A DNA stretch of 64,000 nt from Brachionus manjavacas. Its lineage: Eukaryota; Rotifera; Eurotatoria; Ploima; Brachionidae. Location of the stretch: the NCBI GenBank assembly GCA_019054805.1, contig JAHQIY010000020.1, positions 1 through 64,000 on the forward strand, given 5' to 3'. The notes under the pieces are model-generated. The model did not search any database. It was not told where the DNA came from and was given only the letters and a program-made list of their open reading frames with translations. Position 1 is the stretch's first letter, and every line of letters starts with the position of its first letter. The position numbers and the translations under genes are program-made. Of the stretch, positions 23,700-38,230 are shown in pieces.

Positions 23700-24347
23700 A
23701 TGATTGATGTTGAAATTGATTTTCAGCAATTTTTGAAGCCATTTAAGGCTATTCCGGTGTTACAACCAGAGGAAAAGGAGGGATCTCAGGATGAAGATGA
23801 GTACAATAATCCATAACCGGCAGATAATAACAAGCGTAAACGCTGGCATTGTGAATTTTGAAGCAAAAAACTAAAACAATAATCTTAAAATGAAATAACT
23901 TTTTTACTAAAAGTCTAAAAATAGTTCTGCAAAATGTATCAGCTGGTACAAACTTTGTACCACCCAAATTTAGTCTCTGCAATAACTCTGCAATTTAATT
24001 TTAATGATTTTCTAATACTTTTAGTGCTTTGCAAACTTGCAGAGTTTTTGCAGAGACTAAATTTGGGTGGTACAAAGTTTGTACCAGCTGATACATTTTG
24101 CAGAACTATTTTTAGACTTTTAGTAAAAAAGTTATTTCATTTTAAGATTATTGTTTTTGTTTTTTGCTTCAAAATTCACAATGCCTAAACGCTAATGAGT
24201 CATTTGGACCTTTAAAAACAATAAGAAAATGAAGAATCAGTCGACTCAGATATCAAAGAAAAATGGTCTAAATACAAAACGCATGAAATCCAATATGGTA
24301 AGAAAGTGCAAAACAAGTGTGTTTTTTCAGATTGTTCAGCTTAGATT
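23700..24347 (+). pseudogene. Degraded acidic-protein ORF split by a MITE
   Basis: An ATG at 23700 opens a short frame containing FLKPFKAIPVLQPEEKEG and ending at a TAA near 23815. After removing the 341-bp MITE, coding-like sequence resumes with SVDSDIKEKWSKYKTHEIQ and KCVFSDCSA up to a TAG near 24345. The acidic, Lys-rich composition looks protein-like, but the frame is interrupted and no family is recognised. It may be part of an older transposon. Confidence 0.35.
23845..24185. mobile_element. 341-bp MITE with perfect 8-bp target-site duplication
   Basis: The element begins GGCATTGTGAATTTTGAAGC and ends with the inverse complement. Arms of about 130 bp are almost perfectly palindromic around a centre of about 60 bp. 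It is flanked by TAAACGCT at 23837-23844 and 24186-24193. An 8-bp duplication points to hAT-, P- or Merlin-type transposition; the end GGCATT does not settle which. Open frames on both strands here are mirror images of the palindrome, not genes. Confidence 0.92.
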
Positions 24348-24590: not shown

Positions 24591-24785
24591 CGGCCCTATC
24601 TATATAAATGTCTTTCTTTTTCTGTTGTAAATAAATTCAAATAATAAATTTTACAAAAATATATTTCATTAAATAAAATGAGTGATGACGAGTACGCCCC
24701 ACTTGAAATATATGAATCGCAAGAGTCTGATTCTGTGGAAAATGTGGAAAATGAGATTAAACTCTGATAATTGTAAGAAAAGTCA

Positions 24786-25157
24786 ATGCAATTGTCCAGC
24801 ATTTTTAAAAAGAAACATGAGCAAATAATAAATGCAATTGCAGCAATGAAACACTTATTTACAATACCAATTGCAGCCAAACAAGTGTTGATTGATGGTA
24901 AAAAACCAAAAAGGCTTTCGCCGTTAGCAAAAAAGGCATTGGTTTATCAGCCTAAAGATATTATAATGTCACAAGCAACAACAAGTTCTCCAGCAACGAG
25001 TAAACCAACCGCTAAGCCTGCTCGCAAACGAAAACAGACTGAAGTTACTGAAAATACTGATGAAACCAGTAATAAAAAGCCTAAAATAGGTGAAAATCAT
25101 GTAAGTGATTTAATTCTTAAAGCTAAAAGAGGACGTGGTAGACCTCGCCAAAATTAA
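24786..25157 (+). CDS. Small basic protein with C-terminal AT-hook
   Basis: 123 residues from ATG 24786. A helical Ala-rich start is followed by a Thr/Ser/Pro stretch, a basic KPARKRKQ segment and a terminal AT-hook, KRGRGRPRQN, which would bind AT-rich minor groove. Poly(A) signals AATAAA follow at about 25225 and 25247. Just upstream, a 29-codon ORF (24678-24767, MSDDEYAPLEIYESQESDS) ends in TGA; the two may once have been one gene, since the sequence between them also reads as Cys-rich protein in another frame (DNCKKSQCNCPAF). Whether it is a host gene or part of a transposon is open. Confidence 0.45.
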   Translation: MQLSSIFKKKHEQIINAIAAMKHLFTIPIAAKQVLIDGKKPKRLSPLAKKALVYQPKDIIMSQATTSSPATSKPTAKPARKRKQTEVTENTDETSNKKPKIGENHVSDLILKAKRGRGRPRQN

Positions 25158-25463
25158 TACTACTACTACATCTTACACTTCTTTTTTTTTTAAATGTAAC
25201 TTGATTTAAAAACTTTTTCTTTGAATAAAAATACTTTTTCTGTTCAATAAAATTTATTTTTACTACCGCTTTTATATTTTATTCTCACCGTTTTAACTAT
25301 TTTTTGGGTCTTATTAATTATTTATTTTCTGCTCATATAATTTAATATCCGTTTAATATTATTTACTGTTCAATTAATACCCGTCCTTAAATTATCTCAA
25401 AATATATATATTTGAAAATAATAGTAAATAAATTAAAAAAATTCAGAAAATAATAAACAAACA

Positions 25464-25867
25464 AAGAACAATACACTGTTTCCATTGAAATTTTGCCCTT
25501 TTATATTTTATTTAAAAAAAGAGGGTTCAACTTAATTTTTATATCAAAATAAAGGTTTTTTACTCATCTTTCGGCAAAATTATCTAATTTTTTAGATTTC
25601 AAAAAAAATGTCAATTTTGGCAAGATGAAAATCTACATTTTTTCATAATAAACTTTACAATTTTACTTGCAAGCAGTCGTTGTTTCTTTTTTTCTTGGTG
25701 AAAAAGAATAATTCTCTATTAAGGATTTATTTTGCTTAGAATTGAATTAAATAACAATTTAAAAATAATAAAAAATATCTTTTGATAAAAGTTATGTAAT
25801 TTTTAAATAAAAATTCAGATTAAAGATGCAGAAAACTTAATGAACCTTATTAAATACTTAAAATCTT
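25464..25867 (+). repeat. Left terminal inverted repeat of the 11.2-kb element
   Basis: About 404 bp; its inverse complement is at 36260-36664 with only scattered differences (for example in A/T runs). The near identity of the arms implies recent insertion or homogenisation. Confidence 0.92.
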
Positions 25868-26568
25868 ATTTTATATTTATTTAATTTATTTTTAAAAAAC
25901 AATGATTTATTTTATTTGGGATGATATTCATGATTTGAAAAATTTTTTTATCTAAATGATTATTTCCCTTTAAAGGCTTTACCAAAATAAAAAGGTAAAT
26001 AATTTAAAGTATTTTGGATTATCAATAATTTACTTATTTTTGATCATAAATTTTTTCATCAATTATCGACTACTTTTTAAAAAGAAATAAAAATGAAAAA
26101 AAATGAATTTAAACCAGTAACGCAGAGGAAAGCAAAAGCAATTAAAAATTTAATATAATCTAAAATATTTAAACTTTTTGTTAAGTTTTATTTTGTTTCA
26201 TTTGTCAATATTCATTTTGAAATATTATTTTCAATTTATTTTTTCCATATTAATGATTTAAAATTAATAAAAAATTATAGCATACATCTCAAGAAAAATT
26301 TTTTTAATTGTTTATTGAAACAAAATTTTCAAAAAATGATTAGTCATTTTAAAAAATGAATTTTTGATTTTGAAATTTCAGTCAGTCTCTTTTTAACCTA
26401 GCTCAAAATTTTAATGGCCTTATGAAATCTGTTTTAAAAGAAGTTTGAACCGATTTCTTTGTATTTTGATCTTCTTTTCTAATCTATTTTTTACTCAAAA
26501 AGTTTCTTTAAGCTTTTCTTTACCATCCGGTTTCAACTTGTTTTTTTCATTAATATTTCTTTTATAAA

Positions 26569-27368
26569 GTGAGTTCGTTCAATGCGTTTTTGGAGAAATT
26601 TTGGTCAAGTACAAAAATTGCAGCTAAAAAGTCTTCGATTTCAACGAATTTGACAGTTTCAAACTTTTTGAACAATTCTAAAAATTCAATAGATATCAGA
26701 ATTGATATAAATATGATATCAATGACCAGATTTTTTATAGTTCTTTTGACTGTATTTTTAATTTGCTTATCTGTATCATTACTGAAAAAAAATTATTTTT
26801 CAAAAAAAAATGTAATTTCTTTTTCTAAAAGCTGAGCAATTTTTTTATTTTTAAATTAAGAACCCAAATTCAGATTTGAACTTAAGTATTGGTCAAAATG
26901 GTGTCTCACGTTTTTCAGCTGATAATCGGAATCAGATTTTGGTAATAAATTGTCTTGCATTTTCCTTTTAAATATTTTTAAAGGGCCAGGACCAAAATGT
27001 TCCTATAATTGATCGACAGCCTTGTCTGTGCGCACAACCAAAATTTGCCAAAGCATTTTTGAGAGATCTTAACGAGGTTTTTTCAAAAATATCTTATAAA
27101 AGAATAAGCAAAATTTTTTTTAAGCTTCAATCTGCAATCGTTTCTGAAGAAGTGTATAATCAGACAAATGACGATAGCTTCGAAGTAATTTACAAAGATA
27201 AAAAAATGGCATTTTTTTACACAATTTCATTAAAAGGATGTTTGTATTTATGAAAACCAATATGAAAATTCTCAATTTTTAAGGGAACATTTTAAATTAG
27301 AAAAACTAAATGATACTGATTCAACCAGAACAAGAGAATTAGTTTCTCATCCTGTTTCATGTTTCTGA
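26569..27368 (+). pseudogene. Single-pass membrane protein gene of the 11.2-kb element
   Basis: Coding-like exons are about 26569-26811, 26861-26941 and 26984-27253, with good GT..AG introns in phase. A polar N-terminal part is followed by a membrane segment (MTRFFIVLLTVFLICLSVSL), then a region with the Cys pair PCLCAQPKFAKAFLRDLN and a mixed helical part. The frame hits a stop at 27251, but a single-base change in an AAAA run restores coding-like sequence to a TGA at 27366. The true start is not visible; it may lie in an upstream exon, since 26569 is GTG and follows an acceptor-like tataaag. Family not recognised. Confidence 0.45.
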
Positions 27369-27636
27369 TCCATTGTTTTTGTATTAATATTTCCTTCTAA
27401 CTTGTTCTGGTTAATTGTCTTTGTTGCTTTTTGTATAATTTAATTGTAAAAAATTTGCTGCGATCCATTAAAATTTTGTAAATATATTAGTTGTAATTAA
27501 TATTTAATTTTTTTACTTATCAACATATATTTAAAAAATCAACATACGTCTAAATTTTTTTTTTGTTATAACGTTTAAATGTTAGTAAATAGAAAATGAA
27601 TTAATAATTTGTTTATTCAAAAAAATTTTAAAAAAA

Positions 27637-30600
27637 TTAAAAACTATTGATTAAATAATAAAATGAATAACTGATGGTTGCTTTTTGAAAATAAAAATGA
27701 TCTCTCTTCTTTTTCAGATTTTTTCCATATTTAGATAATTTTTTGACAGTTTTATATATGTCATCAACCACATAAAAATCATTTTTTAGCTTAAAAATTG
27801 AAACAGTATGGCCTGGTTTGTTTAAAGTTGCACAAAGAAAATTATAGTTTCTATTATCACATGTTATAACATCTGGTAATTCATGGATAAAAATGTTCTT
27901 CTCTGCTGATTTTATAAACAAAAATGTAGGCTGATTAAAAAATTTAACGTTGAATTCAAAAGTCAACTTGCATGACTTGCATCTTTCTTCATTTTCAGCT
28001 GATAACTTAATTTTTGAATTAGATTTTTTAAAAAGTATGACATCAGATTCTTTGGGAATATTTCTCTCATTTTTTCACATCTTGAACAACTTTGTTGAAT
28101 AAATACATACTTTTGAAATTCTTTTAAATTCTTTGAAAAATTATCTTCTTCATTATTATCAAGTGATATTTCAATAAAATTTTCAGAAAAATTTAATTTT
28201 GTATCATAGCTCATTATTTGTTTAATCCATAATTCTTTAGCTTTATCGAAATTCTTTTATCCACTTCATCTATAATGTCTTTTATAACTATAGTCAACTT
28301 GTTACTTATTATATTTTGAAAATAAGAAGAATTTTTTATAAAGATACCAGAATGCTAAAAGAATATAATCAATTGAGCAAGTTTTTGAAACAAAAACGTT
28401 TTTTTCCCCTTTGTATTCAATGAAAGCTCCCCACTTTGGTATGTGATTTTTGAATGATTCAATACTTGTTAAATCGTTTGATGATATTTCATGAGTTTGA
28501 TTCAATTCCTTTTGAAGGATTTCAATTTCAATATCACTTGAATCTGAACAACTAGTAGTATATTCCGAATCACTTGAACTTTCTTTTCTACTTCTCTTTC
28601 CTTTAATATTTTTCGGTTTGTTAGGCAACTGTTGATTCTGTATATCGATAGGAATTTCGTTTAAATGTCTTCCTTTTGATATGATACCAGGTGTTCTATA
28701 TTTTAAATAGCTTAAATAATAAATCACAGTTGCGACATGGCTACAGCATCCGACTATTCGACGACCTGACAAACATGTGCATATATGAGCTTAAATAAAA
28801 ATTAAAATCAAAAGATTACCTAGTAAATAGTGTAAAATTTTGAATTTACCTTGAATTGACTTCGAATGATTTAATCCAGGTATATATTTGATAAAAACTT
28901 TGTATGTATTTTTAAACTGTTTAACATAGCTGGTTTGCCCAATATCTTTTAGATTTTTTAGATCTTCTATGACGTGAAATTATTTCAAATGCAAGGATTT
29001 TTGAATTTTCATATTCATCAGTTAAAACCCTATTTGACATATTCTTCATCAATCTTGAGCTAACAATGTAAGCTGTTTTATTAAATAAAAGGTCATCAGC
29101 GTAGGCTCTAGCTTGCTTTAACTGATATGATCCAAGAAATAACTTTCTCATCATTTGTTTTGGTCTTAGAATTGGAAAATCAACAATACTTGAAATCGAA
29201 ATAGATGCTATCAATTTTGTTTCCAAATGTTTTCCTATTAAAAACTCTAATTCATTCTTGGTTATTTTTGATTTTCTAATCATTCTTCGCGCAATTTTTT
29301 TCCATGATTTCCATCAGGGGAACAACTAATATGGCTGAAATTAATCATTGCTGATGCTATTCGATAGTCAATTTGAATATGACCAATAGCTGTATTTCGA
29401 ACATTTTCTAAAGCCCTAAATTTTTTAATTTCGCCGATTTTTTACAACTATGAATCGACACTTAATTAATCAAATAAAATTTTAATAAAAAAAACATAAT
29501 TTAATTTACCTTTGTTACCATTCGTGTTTCATTAGCCTGTTTGGTAGAAAGCTGTTTAGATTTTAAATTAGACTCATCCAAATCATTATTTAAAAACTGC
29601 TGACAAGTTGGAATTTTTACATCAAAATCGTATTTTTCTCTAAGTTGTAATACGACATCTCTAAATCCTTTTAAATAAATCTTTTATTTTTAACAATTCA
29701 CATAATAAAATTCTTTAGTGCAAATTATAAATTTTTACAAACCTCTATCGAGAAAGATAATTGTTTTTCCAGGAAGAAGAATCTTTTCTTTTAGAGCTAA
29801 GTCTGTCTTCAATATATATTCAAATATACAAGCATCGTTCATATTTGCAGAAAATGATCCATAACAGTCAATAATATATCCATCACTACAGCATATAATA
29901 AAAGGCTTAAGTAATGATGTTGATTTTTGAACACTCCAACTTTTATACTGGAAGTTATTATTCTGACTTTTTTCAATGCGAGTATAGGTACCATCACAAA
30001 CAATAACAAGTTCTTCATTCTTAATTGATAGAAGTTCTGTTACCATTTCATTGTTGTGTTTCAAAAAAAATTCTCTTTTTCTATCAGCTCCAAGAAAAAA
30101 TGGAACAAAATCATCGTTTATTGCCTTTCGTATTTGAGACAAGTATTTACTAATGGCTTGTTGAGAACATCCCTTTTAAAAATTTTAGCAAGTACTGATT
30201 GGTTTGTTCCTGTTCTTAACCAGTATCGATAAAGAGCAATCAGCTGTTCTTTCGAACGATTTTTACTATTTTTTATGCTAGTGATGAATTTAGAAAAGTC
30301 TAAAAATTGTTTTTTTGTCCAACCTGTAATTTCAATACAATGTGAGTCTTGAACAGAAGAAATATCTTTAAATTTTTCAAACACACTTTTTTCACCGACT
30401 TCAAACATATCAAACATTTTTATTAATTGATTCTTATAATTTTTTTTTTTTGTACGAATTTGACCATAAAGTTCCTCTTTAATACAACCATTATTATCAA
30501 GATGGTTTCTGCAGCATCTTGCATTTTCATCAATAATTATTCTTTTCATTTTGAATGCATGAATAATTGAATTTTTATTAATTGTTCGCAGTTTAATCCT

Positions 30601-30675
30601 ATCAGAACGCTTCCGTCTACAAATAAAACAGCAATTATGCGAATTTATAGCTGTTTCTATCTTTTTCGTGGACAT
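27637..30675 (-). pseudogene. DDE transposase with SWIM finger and USP-like cysteine peptidase domain, frame-broken
   Basis: Starts at ATG 30675 with a Cys/His-rich N-terminus (CCFICRRKRS, ARCCRNHLD). A helix-turn-helix lies near 30140-30230. The DDE catalytic core has the first Asp in VCDGTYTRIEKSQ (29993-29995) and the second in IIFLDRG (29747-29749, completed across an intron to 29667). A C-terminal block FLGSYQLKQARAYADDLL and a SWIM zinc finger (CTC..CSH, about 28732-28790) follow. Downstream are a Cys box (SKTCSIDYILLAFW, Cys codon 28377-28379), two CxxC pairs (28077-28088 and 27970-27981) and a His box (KPGHTVSIFKLKNDFYVVDD, His codon 27808-27810): the order found in ubiquitin-specific proteases. 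At least four one-base homopolymer frame breaks interrupt it. The third catalytic Glu could not be placed. Confidence 0.75.
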
Positions 30676-30995
30676 TTTAATTTATTTTTTATCTAAAAAA
30701 TGAAGATTGAGTTCTTAAAAATTTCATAAAAATAATATTTTGTGTTATTATCGATTAGAGTGATATAATAAATATAGTTTAAACTTTTATTTGAAAAAAA
30801 TACAAAAAAAAAATTGAAAAATCTACTTTGATTTTTTGGTTTCATTAACTTTTTTATCTGACATTTTACTCTTGATTCTTCTGTTAAAACTTTAATACAA
30901 ATGTAAATTATGCACAGTTTTGTATAAATAGATTTCACTGTAAGAAGACAAGCTCCGATAAACACTAGATCCTAAATAGATAACAAATTTTAAAT

Positions 30996-31580
30996 TCAAA
31001 TCTTCAAATAAAAAAATACTTTTAATCCAACAAAATAAAAAATTCTGTTTTTTTCTTCATCGTATAATCCAAATGAGAACATAAGCCAACAAGCGAACTC
31101 ATTATTTTTAAATAAGAGCCATTCAATTGTCTCTTCTACATTTTTTATGTCGCTAATTGCTATTGTTTCCCTAATTATAATTAGAACTTGTTCTTCATTT
31201 ATTTTAAACCTAACAAAAGAAATTAGAGTAAGAAAATTAAAATTTACTGCAATCAAAAATTACCTTTTAATTTTTTGACATGTTTCTGAATTTTTTTGAT
31301 GGTAAAATAAAATGCCTCCATCCCGTGGATAAAAACCAATCTGAGAATCGCCAAAAATAATTGGTAGATATTTGTCGAAACAATTCAATGAATGATTTGG
31401 AGATATTGAAAATTCAATAATTTTTAGGCAACGAAGTTTATCATCACATGCCACAGCGTTGCTTACACCATGAAAAGTGTTTGGAGGAAAATGACTAGAA
31501 AATGTTTCAGTGTTTACATTTTTTTTATTAGAAATTATATGGGCAGATGATAAAGTTTTACTTTTTTGAAATTTAAACAA
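30996..31580 (-). CDS. Unknown two-exon gene upstream of the transposase
   Basis: Coding-like exons 31263-31580 and about 30996-31210 join in phase across a GT..AG intron of about 50 nt (QKIKR to FKINEEQ). The first exon contains FHGVSNAVACDDKLRCLKII and SQIGFYPRDGGILFYHQKN; the second is rich in Ile, Glu and Trp. No ATG is obvious, so an upstream exon may be missing. It lies inside the 11.2-kb element on the transposase strand and could be an accessory protein. A further open stretch at 30693-30965 may belong to it. Function unknown. Confidence 0.45.
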
Positions 31581-31727
31581 AATAAAAAAAGAAAAAAATA
31601 TATAATTGCATCTCCTTTTAGATTTTGTTTGAAAAAAAATTATTTTACTACAACTTTTTTATCGAAATAAAAAATATTATATTTTTAAGAATATCTTTTT
31701 GAATCAAGTTTCAGCGAAAATTCTTAC

Positions 31728-32589
31728 TTTTTAACATAAAAAATCGATATTGACCTCAATAAAGATTTTTATACTAAAAAACTTATTTTAAGGCAGAAAA
31801 CATATCTTTAAAAAAGATAAAAATTATAGTTTTTTCTTCCAAATTCTATTTTTTTAACATAAAAAATCGATATTGACCTCAATAAAGATTTTTATACTAA
31901 AAAAACTTATTTTAAGGCAGAAAACATATCTTTAAAAAAGATAAAAATTATAGTTTTTTCTTCCAAATTCTATTTTTTTAACATAAAAAATCGATATTGA
32001 CCTCAATAAAGATTTTTATACTGAAAAAACTTATTTTAAGGCAGAAAACATATCTTTAAAAAAGATAAAAATTATAGTTTTTTCTTCCAAATTCTATTTT
32101 TTTAACATAAAAAATCGATATTGACCTCAATAAAGATTTTTATACTAAAAAAACTTATTTTAAGGCAGAAAACATATCTTTAATAAAGATAAAAATTATA
32201 GTTTTTCTTCCAAATTCTATTTTTTAACATAAAAAATCGATATTGACCTCAATAAAGATTTTTATACTAAAAAAAACTTATTTTAAGGCAGAAAACATAT
32301 CTTTAAAAAAGATAAAAATTATAGTTTTTTCTTCCAAATTCTATTTTTTTAACATAAAAAATCGATATTGACCTCAATAAAGATTTTTATACTAAAAAAC
32401 TTATTTTAAGGCAGAAAACATATCTTTAATAAAGATAAAAATTATAGTTTTTTCTTCCAAATTCTATTTTTTAACATAAAAAATCGATATTGACCTCAAT
32501 AAAGATTTTTATACTAAAAAACTTATTTTAAGGCAGAAAACATATCTTTAGAAAAGATAAAAATTATGGTTTTTTCTTCCAAATTCTAT
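31728..32589. repeat. Minisatellite: seven copies of a 121-125 bp unit
   Basis: The word tcgatattgacctcaataaag recurs at about 31744, 31867, 31991, 32115, 32237, 32362 and 32483, a period of 121-125 bp. Units differ mainly in A/T run length. Each unit contains a small palindrome, atctttaaaaaagat. It separates the leftward gene block from the rightward homeodomain gene, so it sits where a shared promoter or transposase-binding array would be expected. It is not a CRISPR array: there are no unique spacers. Confidence 0.95.
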
Positions 32590-32689
32590 ATCTTTTACCT
32601 TAAAAATTTTTCTTGTCGTTAGTATTTTAATTTTAGATTTTTTTGATATAATTATTATTCCAATATTTTATTTTAATCTTTTTATCTTG

Positions 32690-33261
32690 ATGTTTAAGAT
32701 TATTTTTAAAATGGCATTAATTCGTTATTCAAACATTTTACTCACTTCACTTAGAGCTTCAGCTAACTTAAGCTGGAGATTTTCTACCAATGCTTTTAAA
32801 ATGTTTTTTAATTCTTCGAAAGTCTCTTTTCGAAGTTTATCGAAAGTTTTCAATACATTTATCAATAAAAAACAGTCCAAGAAAAATGATAATCAGCCTA
32901 TTAAGAAAAATTCAAAAAAACGAATAAATTTTAAAAATCGCAGGATTCTTTACGATGCACTCATATACCAAAAAGATTTTCTCGAAATGAAAAGATTCAA
33001 TTAGCTAAAAAAACAAATTTGTCGGTCCGTCAAATATCAAGATGGATTTCAAATTCAAGAAATAAAAAATTTAATTCGTCTAAACGCATATCATTAAACG
33101 AAGAAATAAAACTGAATGAATTTTTTGAAAATGTGTGTGCATATCCACAAAAAGAACAAATATCTGAATTGGCAGAGAATCTCGAGATCACAAGAAGACA
33201 AATCAGTCAATGGTTTTACAGAAAAAGAAGAAAAGAATTAAAAAAAAATAAATCAATTTAA
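32690..33261 (+). pseudogene. Protein with two tandem homeodomains, encoded in the transposon (one frame break)
   Basis: ATG at 32690 (or 32711). A Ser/Phe-rich N-terminus and a basic linker (KKQSKKNDNQPIKKNSKKR) lead to homeodomain 1, whose recognition helix reads LSVRQISRWISNSRNKK, keeping Trp48, Asn51 and Arg53. Homeodomain 2 spans about 33090-33250 with AYPQKEQISELAENLEITRR and QISQWFYRKRRKELKK; it keeps Trp48-Phe49 but has Arg at position 51 instead of the near-invariant Asn. The two halves are in different frames, joined by a missing base in a T4 run near 32970. It is about 190 residues if joined and presumably binds DNA. The domain assignment is strong; the role in transposition is unknown. 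Confidence 0.75.
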
Positions 33262-34269
33262 TTTTATGTAAATTTTTTTTTTAAATAAATTTTTACTTGC
33301 TAAATACAATAATTAACTTTTTAAACATAGTGTATATTTTATTAGTTTATTAATAGCGATAAAAAATTTAGAGAAAAGGAAAAATATCATTTTTTAGAAT
33401 ATCACTTTTATTTCAAAAAACAATGTTTAATTTTAAATTTCACTTGAATGATAAAATCTTAATTTTTGCATCTGAACTTGGTTTTTGATTCAGGAAAATA
33501 GATGGATAAATTCGAACGAATCATCATTTTATTGGAATTTTTTATAAGATATTTAATATTCACATTTATTTAACAAAAATATAAAATTACAAATAAACAA
33601 ATAAATTATTTACCATTAATGGTATTGTGAATTTAAAAAACAGAAAATAGAATAAAAAATTTTATTTAAGGCGATAAAGTGTAACATACTTTGTTGCAGT
33701 TTGTGGCCTTATTTTTTCTAATATTTTTTATTAACTCTAATTTTGATTTATCAAAACATGATGAATTTTTTTCTATTTGTTTTTGAAATTCACAACACCC
33801 CAAAAAATCAAATCAAATGTCAAAAAGAGCCCAAATCTGAGCTGAAGAATAAATAGGTTTTTTTAATGTTATATTTTTGTGACATGATTTGGATTCGAAT
33901 TCTTAATAAAAAATATTATCTCTTTTTACTCATTTACATATGCAATGAATTATCAATAATCATTTGAATTTAATAACTTTAAAAAACTTAAAAACTTTCA
34001 TAATTTTATTTAACCTGCAAATCTAAGACTTATTCATTTTTATGCTGACTGTTTTAAGTCCTAATGCTCCTGCAAATTAATCACAATTTTACTTGTGGTA
34101 CTCTACAAATAGCACCAATTGTCATTAAAAAAGCTGACCTCGTATCCTTGAGCCACTTATTGATTAGAAAAATTTAATAATTAATATTTAATTTTTTAAT
34201 CGTTTTTTATAATTGTGGTTAAAAACTATTATAAACTTTAAAAGACTTTATTCTAATACAATTGAAGTT
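33262..34269. other. Interior of the 11.2-kb element without recognised gene
   Basis: AT-rich, with no coding frame or repeat structure that I can support. Confidence 0.35.
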
Positions 34270-35260
34270 TTTTTGTTTTGGTAGTTAAGTAGTCTCTAAA
34301 GGAAGCTGGGATAGGACCCTAAATTTTTTGAAGATCATGATATTCTCATTAGATAAGGCAAGCTACATCCCACAGAGGGACAACGTAGTAGTGGTAGCCA
34401 CAAAGCCTGCTAGCTCCTCAGGAAGGCTTCCTAAAACAGGAGGCAACAAGACAGCTACAGCTAAGTCTCGCACTCGCTCAAAAAGCAGGATGCGGTTTTA
34501 AGGAACTAGCAAAGCTCACACCGGGGATCGATTTAGTCAACAATATCCTTTCACCCACCACTAATCACCCTAATTATTCATTAATTCATAAGTGGAAGTT
34601 CGGTCGCCCGGTAATTAGTAAATACTTCTGGGACAAAGACACGAACATTATTAATTAATTATGGAATTAATTAGTAATGTTCCATAATTCCTTATGGAAT
34701 CGTGGAGGTACATGGACAATCCAGAAAGCTCGGAAGACGAGCTTCAAGAGCAAAATGATAAGGAAAATGATCAAATAGGCGAGGGATCTCCAACAGCCTC
34801 CTCCACCTACTACCACCAGCTTCTTTGCAACCAGGTCGAAAGAATTTTCGCCCAGTTCGATGATTGTCAGATTCAGGCCAAGGGTCTCACAGCTCACAGC
34901 TCTATATCTAGGGAAAAAGTAAAGGTGGACGCCTACTTCGCTCTACCCACAGATATCTTTCCATTAGGAATTTCCAATCACTCACGCGCTCTTTGCCAAT
35001 CTACAAAACGGTCTCATGATTCGGTCGGCAGCTGGTTGCGCTCGTATTAAGAGCTATTAGCACAAAATTAGTCCAGCGATAAGGATAAGGACTCGTGCTG
35101 GTCTCTCTTTAAAAGGCCAGAATAGTCGAATCATCCCGATATTGCGGAACGATCAAATAGGAACGATATTGCGGAACTTTTTGCTGGTCTCGAGACCCAG
35201 GACGAAAGTAAGACCCATAGCGGACTTCTCTGCATTAACAAGGTCCATAAAATAATATTT
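34270..35260 (+). mobile_element. GC-richer nested insertion with two short ORFs
   Basis: Base composition changes abruptly from about one quarter GC to near one half over roughly 1 kb. It holds a 54-codon ORF (34337-34501) with the basic Thr/Ser/Arg-rich end KSRTRSKSRMRF, and a 118-codon ORF (34694-35050) starting MESWRYMDNPESSEDELQEQ with STYYHQLLCNQVERIF. Both look like pieces of a retroelement gag or ORF1, but I do not recognise the family. Ends and target duplication are not resolved. Confidence 0.5.
34694..35050 (+). CDS. 118-residue acidic-to-basic ORF in the GC-rich insertion
   Basis: ATG 34694 in a good context. The N-terminus is acidic (SSEDELQEQNDKENDQ). The middle has CNQVERIFAQFDDCQIQAKG and the C-terminus is Ser/Arg-rich. 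No domain was recognised. Retroelement ORF1-like by context only. Confidence 0.35.
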   Translation: MESWRYMDNPESSEDELQEQNDKENDQIGEGSPTASSTYYHQLLCNQVERIFAQFDDCQIQAKGLTAHSSISREKVKVDAYFALPTDIFPLGISNHSRALCQSTKRSHDSVGSWLRSY

Positions 35261-35312
35261 TTCTTATTTAAATTTTAAAAAAATTTTATTTTTTAAAGAA
35301 AAAACAATAATA

Positions 35313-35941
35313 TTACACTAATTTTTTTCTAGCATATAAACATATAAAAAAAATTAAAGTTAAAAAAATTATAACAAAGGTGATCACACAAATAACAATT
35401 TGAAAAAATCCAAAAATTCCAACATTTGTAAATAATCCTTTAAAAAAAAAATTTAAGTAGAGACCACCACAATGCCCTATACTAGAAGCTATATCAGAAA
35501 AAGTAACAAGGATTGCTCTTAGAAAAGAAGGACTCTTTGAACAAAAGTCTGTGAAAAAAAAAACAAAAAAACTTAAATCTTTATACGGCAAGCACTTATT
35601 ATATGCTATTTCTTGTTCAACATAGTTAACATAAACACCTTCCCCAATCAAAATTCCAAACAAACTAAAAATGACAACCATCAATGATATTAAGAATGTT
35701 TTAAGGGAAAAATATTTATTTTTAACAAGCTTGACGTCCTCAATTCGAAGATTTTTTGCAAAAGTCCTCTGATTACTATTCCATACCAGCTCTAATTTTT
35801 CTTGATTTATACTCTTAATAAATCCTATTTGAATTAATCCTTAAAAAAAAATTTTAAACAATATTTAATTATAATGCATGATATTAATTTTATACCATTT
35901 GATCTTTTAAATGAAACTTTATCATTGATTTTTAAATTCAT
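35313..35941 (-). CDS. Multi-pass membrane protein of the 11.2-kb element
   Basis: Two exons (35896-35941 and 35313-35839; intron 56 nt) give 190 residues. A short N-terminal beta-rich, tudor/SH3-like segment (INDKVSFKRSNG, QEKLELVWNSNQRTF) is followed by a membrane helix (FLISLMVVIFSLFGILIGEG), a loop with two Cys, and two or three more hydrophobic helices ending in LIFFICLYARKKLV. The segment AILVTFSDIASSIGHCGGLY is faintly reminiscent of chloride-channel CLIC-like (CLCC1) proteins; I hold this only as a weak lead. It lies just inside the right TIR. Confidence 0.5.
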
Positions 35942-36259
35942 TTTTTAGCTTCAGTTAAACTTTGTCTAAAATTTTTAAAATGAATTTATATATAAATTAA
36001 TTTATGTGCAATTTTTAAAAAATATGCTATGTCCAATTTAATATGTAATGCTCTATTTTCAATTGGAAAAAAATTTGATTATTGAAAAATACGAAGAAGA
36101 TGACTCAAAAATTATCCTCTTTTTTAAATAGATATTTATGTAATCTTATTTAAAAACTTTTTGTAACTAAAATTATTTTTTGTTAAATGAAATAAAAATT
36201 ACAACTTAAATCTTTAGAAAAATAACTCTCAAACGCTAAAATTTTCGTTGTATTCTTGA

Positions 36260-36664
36260 AGATTTTAAGTATTTAATAAGGTTCATTAAGTTTTCTGCAT
36301 CTTTAATCTGAATTTTTATTTAAAAATTATCTAACTTTTATCAAAAAGATATTTTTTATTATTTTTAAATTGTTATTTAATTCAATTCTAAGCAAAATAA
36401 ATCCTTAATAGAGAATTATTCTTTTTCACCAAGAAAAAAGAAACAACGACTGCTTGCAAGTAAAATTGTAAAGTTTATTATGAAAAAATGTAGATTTTCA
36501 TCTTGCCAAAATTGACATTTTTTTTGGAAATCTAAAAAAATTAGATAATTTTGCCGAAAGATGAGTAAAAAACCTTTATTTTGATATAAAAATTAAGTTG
36601 AACCCTCTTTTTTTAAATAAAATATAAAAGGGCAAAATTTCAATGGAAACAGTGTATTGTTCTT
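36260..36664 (-). repeat. Right terminal inverted repeat of the 11.2-kb element
   Basis: Inverse complement of 25464-25867. It ends CAGTGTATTGTTCTT. Confidence 0.92.
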
Positions 36665-38230
36665 TATAATTATTTGGGTGAGTTAAGAAGATATCTTTTT
36701 GGAAAAAGAAGCATTACTTATTCTGAGTTAAAAAATTGGTTAGACACCAATAATAGCAAGCAATTTTTAACTGAACATGATAGCTATTTTTTGATTTTGA
36801 AGTTTTAATTACAGGTACATTGGTGTTCCGGATTACGATAAATTTACGTAAAATATTGTAAATTTACAAAGTATAAAAAAAAAATTTCCAAGATTTTACA
36901 TAGAATTTGGTTAATTTCCAACAATTTTTGTAAATTTATGGATAAAAAAAAATCTGAAGCATTTTTACCATTTTTTAATATTTTTTAATATTTATTACCA
37001 TTAGATTGATTACATTTTACCAAAATTTCCGTAAATTATGGTGAATTTTTTTTATACATAGATTTCAAAAATTGAATTTTGAAATACAAAATTGAAATAA
37101 CAAATATTGAAAAATAAAAATTAATTTTTTTAAAAAAAGGAAATTAAATTAAACCTAATCCTTAACCAAGTTTTACATAAATCTGTTAAATTTAAGTTAT
37201 TTAGCTTTTGTAAATATTCGTAAAACTCTGAAAATTTACAATATTTACGCAAATTATCGTAAAATACTAAATCCGGAGCACCAATATAAATTAATTGGTA
37301 AATAAGATATAGAAATTTACTGATTCACCTTTTTAGGAAAAAATTAGTGTTGTTTTATCAACTAAAAGATTATTAGAAGAAGTTAAAAAACGAGATCTAT
37401 TGGTTGAGGATGCAACACATAAAATTATTTTTCAAGGGTTTCTCTTGATAATAGTAGGGACTACTGATTATCAAAAAATTTTCATCCGATAGCAATTTCC
37501 ATTTGTGTTATTGAAAATGAATATGAAAACGAACAGAATATATATAATTTTAAAAAAAATCCCAGATTTTTTCCAAAATAAAGTATGAACATATGTATGA
37601 ACAATGGTTTTAAAAGTGTCTTTGGAAATGATTTTAAGCGAATTATGTTCTGGGCTCAAGCTGACCGAGCTATGAAAAAAATTTGACAATTGATGATGTC
37701 AAAACTAAAAAATTCTTTATGTTGAATCTGCAAATGTTACAATTATGGTACAATCAATCAAAGTTTGAAATTGTTTAAGAAAAATAATAGTATAATTGGA
37801 TAAAAGATAAGTCAAATCAAAAATTTTGGTTGATTCGAAGTTTAGCACGCACAAATAATGGCCTAGAAGGAACAGATAAATTGATCAAATAAGTTCATGC
37901 TTTCACAAATGGAATATCATTTTTCAACTTTCTTGAAAGATTATAAATTATTCTTAAACGATGGTCAACAGATAAAGTTACAATCAAAAAGTGGAAAGAT
38001 GAACCGCTAAAAAAAAGATGAATACTGATACGATTCACTTGCATATGCAGATAAAAAACCTATTCTTACATATAATAAAACATGTGATATCTATTTGTTA
38101 AAATTAGATAAGTTGGTTTATTTGGAGCAATACTTAGATTATCTAGAATGTGACTTTATTTATGTTCATCTTGCTCATCTTTGTTCATCAGGATTACCTC
38201 AAAGATTAAATATGTAAACATATTTTTATC
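36665..38230 (+). pseudogene. MULE (Mutator-like) transposase relic, split by a MITE
   Basis: Coding fragments with many stops: SITYSELKNWLDTNNSK before the MITE, then LVEDATHKIIFQGF and FHPIAIS (the first catalytic Asp region of MULE transposases), later LARTNNGLEGTDKLIK, the typical TNN-x-LE-x-TN segment, and NGISFFNFLERL. The order matches the MULE family, but several in-frame stops and frame changes show it is dead. Its upstream part is missing; the 11.2-kb element abuts it directly. Confidence 0.65.
36818..37287. mobile_element. 470-bp MITE with TA duplication inside the MULE relic
   Basis: Ends CATTGGTGTTCCGGATT and (inverted) TATTGGTGCTCCGGATT, flanked by TA at 36816-36817 and 37288-37289. 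The arms contain tttacgtaa-like words resembling those of the 13.4-kb MITE, suggesting related Tc1/mariner-type families. Confidence 0.7.

Follow-up and report, generated by a model that had tools for sequence, protein, structure and literature searches.

A stretch of 64,000 nucleotides from the rotifer Brachionus manjavacas (contig JAHQIY010000020.1; the whole stretch is called the window below) very probably contains a recently active, multi-gene cut-and-paste transposon of the PHIS superfamily with a Spy-type target. Besides the transposase gene T, the same terminal inverted repeats (TIRs) enclose a gene for a protein with two homeodomains (H), two genes for predicted membrane proteins (C and E) and, as a feature of this family, gene A. 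All of these genes lie inside the TIRs in each of the 15 full-length copies found in the animal's own genome and have thus been mobilized together, in agreement with an earlier sequence-only reading that proposed a multi-gene DNA transposon. The association of the cargo with T appears to be old, because E, H, C and T recur in this order in divergent families of the same genome, and C with T (once also with E) is found in two other Brachionus species.

Boundaries, copies and insertion site

The near-perfect inverted ends that the sequence-only reading had placed 11.2 kb apart, at 25464 and 36664, were recovered; the exact unit occupies positions 25466–36662 of the window and is flanked by host AAA and TTT (Table 1). 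The two window TIRs differ by two substitutions and six gap columns across about 402 bp. In the 114-Mb genome, TIR sites were found at no fewer than 40 places (40 of 87 candidates were scored). Pairing of TIRs gave 15 full-length units, including the window one, on C1, C2 (two), C4, C7, C8, C11, C16, C17, C20 (window), C23 (two), C24 and C26 (two); here and below, C with a number is a sequence label in this genome, distinct from gene C, and P with a number denotes a public protein. The units are 10.7–11.2 kb long and match from end to end in all 15 cases, save for a deletion in the C7 copy (window 33920–34087). Their length varies mainly because of a 124-bp minisatellite, present in 3–7 units as counted by one motif. 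Two more copies, on C7 and C16, are truncated.

At least five coding regions and a minisatellite had been noted inside the ends, and five coding blocks are indeed supported by relatives and by other copies, where their frames are open. They do not simply form the two divergent blocks described earlier: from left to right the element consists of A(+), T(-), C(-), minisatellite, H(+), fossil repeat and E(-). C and H are divergently oriented on either side of the minisatellite, which may contain a control region common to both genes. The GC-richer segment between H and E was considered as a cargo gene and rejected, since it is a fossil of another repeat; 17 family copies were listed, and relatives with 67–78% identity occur at C11, C19, C9, C17 and elsewhere in the genome. 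No Rfam match was obtained in 25000–37000 at E up to 0.5.

Table 1. Features of the window element and divergent loci with related genes
Feature	Position	Strand	Remarks
Host AAA, left half of AAATTT target	25463..25465	.	positions -3 to -1 are AAA in 15/15 copies
Left TIR, ~402 bp	25466..25867	+	starts GAACAATACACTG
Gene A	26554..27340	+	at least 2–3 exons: 26554-26832, ~26865-26929, 26972-27250 (limits approximate); open frames in other copies
Gene T, transposase	27637..30675	-	~4 exons: 30675-29740, 29680-29512, ~29465-28862, 28790-27637 (limits approximate)
Gene C	30696..31604	-	~3 exons; Cys-containing ectodomain, C-terminal transmembrane stretch, signal-peptide-like start (by eye)
124-bp minisatellite	31718..32606	.	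~7 units in window copy; between divergent genes C and H
Gene H, two homeodomains	32711..33261	+	183 aa in intact copies; window copy frame-shifted
GC-richer fossil of another repeat	34290..35250	.	carried by whole family; not counted as cargo
Gene E	35313..35941	-	2 exons: 35941-35864, 35840-35313
Right TIR	36259..36662	-
Host TTT, right half of target	36663..36665	.	TTT in 15/15 copies
Divergent locus	C4:1049.6-1059.7 kb		E, H, C, T in that order
Divergent locus	C4:34.7-38.1 kb		E, H, C
Divergent locus	C50:35.0-38.8 kb		H (42%) and E (48%), frames open
Divergent locus	C10:2286-2290.6 kb		H (33%), C, T
Divergent locus	C13:3163-3167 kb		T (66%) and C (51%); TIR end at 3160934

In all 15 copies AAA stands directly before the element and TTT directly after it, while the adjacent positions are mixed; no direct target duplication at the TIR ends was seen in the 15 flank pairs. 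As the two C26 copies have common flanks, the number of independent insertions is 14. Empty sites were sought by comparing the joined flanks (90 + 90 bp) of these 14 insertions with the animal's own genome (26 of 1432 candidates were scored). Uninterrupted relatives of the same length, within 1–2 bp, were detected for four of the 14: C26b (100% over 181 bp), C24a (99% over 180 bp), C16a (97%) and C2a (97%). At the empty loci corresponding to C16a every base of AAATTT is preserved. For C23b, a similar unit without the insertion occurs inside its own tandem-repeat flank. Empty sites are therefore available for at least five of the 14 insertions, and no bases were gained or lost at any junction seen. 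The element is thus inserted precisely between AAA and TTT, without duplication.

These data also bear on the possibility that the ends belong to an inverted duplication or an assembly artefact rather than to a mobile unit. Some copies do lie within duplicated regions, as shown by the common flanks of C26a and C26b and by the truncated C7 and C16 copies, which have the left flank of one full copy. However, there are 14 independent flanks, and the joined flanks agree with uninterrupted sites across the AAA|TTT junction. We therefore reject this explanation and consider its probability negligible; the search of the genome with the TIRs, proposed earlier as a check, thus came out in favor of a mobile unit.

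The divergence between copies is low. To the left of the minisatellite it averages 0.064%, with a maximum of 0.17% (substitutions only, 15 copies, 5,881 alignment columns), and to the right it is 0.11% (substitutions only, 3,671 columns of 14 of the 15 copies; C8a had no anchor and was left out). Therefore, the family is very young. The window copy contains frameshifts in T and H. Indel columns adjoin homopolymers of 5 or more in 78 of 87 cases left of the minisatellite and in 91 of 231 cases right of it, the latter count including the C7 deletion. Many of the broken frames may therefore reflect sequencing or assembly errors or slippage.

The transposase and its placement near Spy

The sequence-only reading described the transposase as a DDE/SWIM/peptidase protein, and the same parts were revealed here. 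T is composed of a zinc-finger-like N-terminus (by eye), a helix-turn-helix, a DDE_Tnp_4 domain with a conserved DDE triad, a SWIM motif and a predicted cysteine protease tail of the USP fold. In Pfam, the catalytic domain corresponds to PF13359 (DDE_Tnp_4), with E values of 3.8e-11 for the window family, 4.7e-11 for P0006 and 1.9e-11 for P0002; for P0012, the DDE region of which is incomplete, the value is only 0.036. We take DDE_Tnp_4 to be the catalytic domain of the PHIS superfamily. Because of this domain and of the insertion at AAA|TTT without duplication, the element can be placed near Spy within this superfamily. The published signature of Spy is likewise an AAA/TTT insertion point with no target duplication (PMC11304231; PMC4482050). 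Spy excision and insertion are described as blunt (PMC11304231), and from this work we infer that the window element would also be cut bluntly, without stagger.

The USP fold of the tail was seen by fold comparison only: neither the T profile nor the tail gave a credible match in sequence searches of the PDB, and no peptidase match for the tail was found in Pfam. The predicted catalytic Cys-His-Asp residues (C27, H214, D229/D230) are invariant in five of five sequences, and B. plicatilis P0001 has Ser in place of the catalytic Cys. The protease motif is absent from the named insect and bdelloid T homologues in a tree of 53 proteins. Pfam matches under the cut-off, namely HEPN_AbiU2 (T), DUF3671 (E) and DUF7297 (an open reading frame of 120 aa), were not used.

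Two distant transposase relatives were observed in the same genome, at C1:123941-126622 (32% identity, an unbroken frame of 1073 aa) and C9:579436-581193 (37%). No TIR end of the types described here was listed near them, and they are possibly simpler, cargo-free elements.

The cargo genes and their relatives

A homeodomain protein and membrane proteins had also been inferred, and the element does encode a homeodomain protein and proteins with predicted membrane stretches. For H, homeobox families are the best Pfam match (Homeobox_KN, E 3.2e-12), and its PDB matches, with E values of 7e-4 to 8e-4, include CDX-1 and Extradenticle; the frame is unbroken in at least seven copies. A plain hydropathy scan predicted transmembrane stretches in A (one), C (one) and E (two). 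C contains three cysteines that are invariant in five aligned rows. In E the membrane stretches follow a putative KIF2A-like N-terminal domain, and there is a conserved Cys-containing loop (GEGVYVNY...KCLPYKD...DFCSKSPS). The domain model PF22923 (KIF2A-like_1st, cut-off 27 bits) gave 32.7 bits (E 5.8e-8) with the E piece of B. calyciflorus, 25.7 bits with the whole fused protein and 22.2 bits (E 1.1e-4), under the cut-off, with the E piece of the window. No Pfam match was found for A.

Searches of the animal's own genome with E, H, C and T revealed divergent loci at 33–66% protein identity, in which the genes are again grouped (Table 1). At C4:34614, AAA is followed by GAACAATACGCTATTTGCATTGAA, with E beginning about 115 bp inward; the C50 locus has the same end. 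A pattern search for related ends returned 89, compared with one for the reversed control. Since the pattern itself includes AAA, the presence of AAA at 86 of the 89 is biased, and the independent test is that of the 15 flank pairs. Exact ends of the ACGCTATTTGC type have E within about 0.1–0.9 kb in four cases out of five; the fifth end, on C13, resembles the left end of the window element in that the gene detected closest to it is T, located about 2.3 kb inward.

Comparison of the window family with C50 suggests that H and E are under purifying selection. The pS/pN values (proportions of synonymous and nonsynonymous differences) are 0.75/0.35 over 180 codons for H and 0.57/0.35 over 175 codons for E, with third positions accounting for the largest share of the differences (105 of 235 and 89 of 209, respectively); these are single pairwise comparisons for each gene, made without a significance test. 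As the gene order recurs at divergent loci and H and E appear to be selected, the cargo is probably an old part of the mobile unit rather than a chance capture.

A look for the same gene set in other rotifers had been proposed as a check, and part of it was found in Brachionus. Protein P0006 of B. calyciflorus is an automated annotation fusion of E, C and T; fusions that join C to T are seen in P0010 of B. calyciflorus and P0012 of B. plicatilis. Gene C is 97% identical to B. plicatilis P0055, with 80% of the query covered. Searches for E and C alone yielded two homologues among 106 candidates (one being the window's own protein) and one among 99, respectively; H was compared within its own genome only. 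For T, at least 52 homologous proteins were found (the 7,992 candidates with most words in common were scored). The 11 Brachionus rows of the 53-protein tree, including that of the window, form one group with support of 87/97, not starred, and a group of 14 rows (Brachionus and three unnamed proteins) is supported at 100/100. The four cargo-bearing models are scattered through the Brachionus group. Whether a model is fused depends on the gene predictor, and we therefore ascribe this scatter to accidents of annotation; it is no proof of cargo in the unfused relatives. In the simplest reading, C became associated with T before these Brachionus lineages separated, and E probably did so too. Some of the public proteins involved (P0001, P0012, P0006 and P0052) bear misleading database names, among them vacuolar sorting-associated 13c, Zinc finger 62 like and Kinesin-like protein, or are gene-prediction fusions.

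The element could alternatively be a simple single-gene Spy element whose other genes are chance passengers of one recent burst, of no use to it. The 15 copies are so alike that selection within the family is hardly put to the test, and the fossil repeat is a true passenger. This explanation is nevertheless improbable, since E, H and C keep the same order beside T or related TIR ends in families with only 33–66% identity, proteins of B. calyciflorus and B. plicatilis combine C with T, in one case with E as well, and pS exceeds pN for both H and E.

A number of observations weaken the case made here. No single copy with all genes intact at once was found. Neither C nor T was matched at C50, nor T at C4:34614 (48 of 243 candidates were scored in the T search), nor E or H near C13. 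In the own-genome search A matched only in the window family and in a cluster on C24, with no distant relatives. B. plicatilis P0054 is 86% identical to E, yet only 35% of E is covered. In the tree the cargo label is unclustered, with 4 changes against a shuffled mean of 3.9. This tree comprises homologues of T, without reference Spy, ISL2EU or Harbinger sequences, and the kinship with Spy rests on the target and the domain. The signal-peptide-like start of C did not pass the hydropathy scan, and the structure model of C is unusable (pLDDT 44.7). In the genome search with PF22923 the sole match was to a host exon at C18:233938 and the E genes were missed, so that the kinesin-13 kinship of E comes mainly from the B. 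calyciflorus sequence. Finally, the roles proposed for H, C, E and A are based on domain content and analogy.

Several further observations were made around the element and its ends. The C24 cluster (C24:687-776 kb, L040-L044) consists of decayed, rearranged relatives with pieces 85–95% identical and looks like an old amplified array; at L040 and L041 two element ends flank a common stretch of about 4.2 kb, the edges of which are inverted copies of one flank. At C1:11859288-11860007 two facing TIR ends, one of which contains a single mismatch, are separated by only about 720 bp and form a candidate non-autonomous derivative similar to miniature inverted-repeat transposable elements. A third TIR type, ACTCTATTTGC, has many ends on C29, C31 and C2:9682302-9696216, some of them evenly spaced on C29. 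To the left of the element and outside it, window 23845-24185 contains a 152-bp inverted repeat (98%) with a 37-nt spacer. Short frames with AT-hook-like ends (GRGRPRQN or RKRGRPTK) occur in two unrelated places outside the element, window 24777-25157 and L049 ~724-945.

Possible mechanism and comparison with known systems

In the mechanism that we propose, T would excise and insert the element. H most likely assists the transposase in the manner of the Harbinger Myb-like protein, which binds TIRs and enables nuclear import (PMC9179366): it may bind the element ends or internal regulatory DNA and help to recruit, import or express T. More speculatively, the protease domain of T could strip ubiquitin or SUMO from T or from host factors, and so stabilize the complex or blunt silencing, while E and C, at a membrane that would probably be the nuclear envelope or endoplasmic reticulum, could anchor the complex, set its position or act against the host. 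It is also conceivable, though unlikely, that the conserved membrane module (the ectodomain of C and the kinesin-13-like E) biases segregation at the nuclear envelope or spindle, or spreads the element between cells via the surface; the element would then be a selfish multi-function one without viral ancestry.

KDZ elements, TET+ fungal transposons, Teratorn and Maverick resemble the window element in being large and having accessory genes, but these genes and the target duplications are different. Maverick/Polinton elements carry polymerase B, a retrovirus-type integrase and capsid genes, and duplicate 6 bp. A virus-like element of this kind, or one similar to an endogenous virus, might rely on a transposase for its integration, and C and E would then play the part of envelope-like proteins. 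Three proteins (C, E and A) have predicted membrane stretches, and one of them also has an ectodomain and a start that resembles a signal peptide by eye. However, no polymerase, integrase of that type, capsid or packaging gene was found among the Pfam matches of the six proteins scanned, the transposase is of the DDE_Tnp_4 type and there is no target duplication, which makes a viral nature very improbable. For Zisupton (KDZ) an 8-bp duplication is described (PMC12730594), whereas the window element has none and its catalytic domain matches DDE_Tnp_4. Fungal PHISTA elements, which belong to the same superfamily, contain a TET/JBP gene along with one for a third protein (PMC12730594).

PIF/Harbinger and Nuwa also combine the transposase with a second, DNA-binding protein. 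In the window element this protein has two homeodomains rather than Myb/SANT, and no TWA, CWG or TNA duplication is present. ISL2EU, which has been placed in one lineage with Spy (PMC12730594), has a related target, A|AT|T (PMC4482050); in contrast, no AT duplication is seen in our case, and the Pfam hits with E up to 1 include neither YqaJ nor THAP.

The closest likeness is to Spy, in the AAA/TTT insertion without duplication, the PHIS-type DDE transposase and TIRs within the published range of 5–691 bp (PMC11304231; PMC4482050). Published Spy elements are 1,165–5,910 bp long, encode a transposase of about 700 aa and occur in arthropods, cnidarians and molluscs; they have a single open reading frame or mostly so (PMC4482050; PMC9179366; one or two in one place in PMC11304231). 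The window element differs in its length of 11.2 kb, its five gene blocks, the USP-fold tail of its transposase and its rotifer host. No title describing such an element was found in the literature searched, the coverage of which was partial, so an earlier description elsewhere is possible; among the matches listed, the phrase 'spy transposons' appeared only in PMC11304231 and PMC4482050. The sequence-only reading suggested a distinct, perhaps undescribed group. A wholly separate group is not supported, given the PHIS/Spy kinship, which that reading had not named, while the multi-gene cargo is indeed unlike that of Spy.

The family accounts for some misleading gene names in public rotifer annotations. 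As its activity is recent and the animal genus can be cultured, it lends itself to tests of whether each accessory protein is required. We rate the element as Spy-like in its target and superfamily and unlike Spy in its coding capacity: being about twice the size of the largest published Spy and carrying recurring DNA-binding, protease and membrane functions, it suggests that PHIS transposons can build a stable multi-gene programme.

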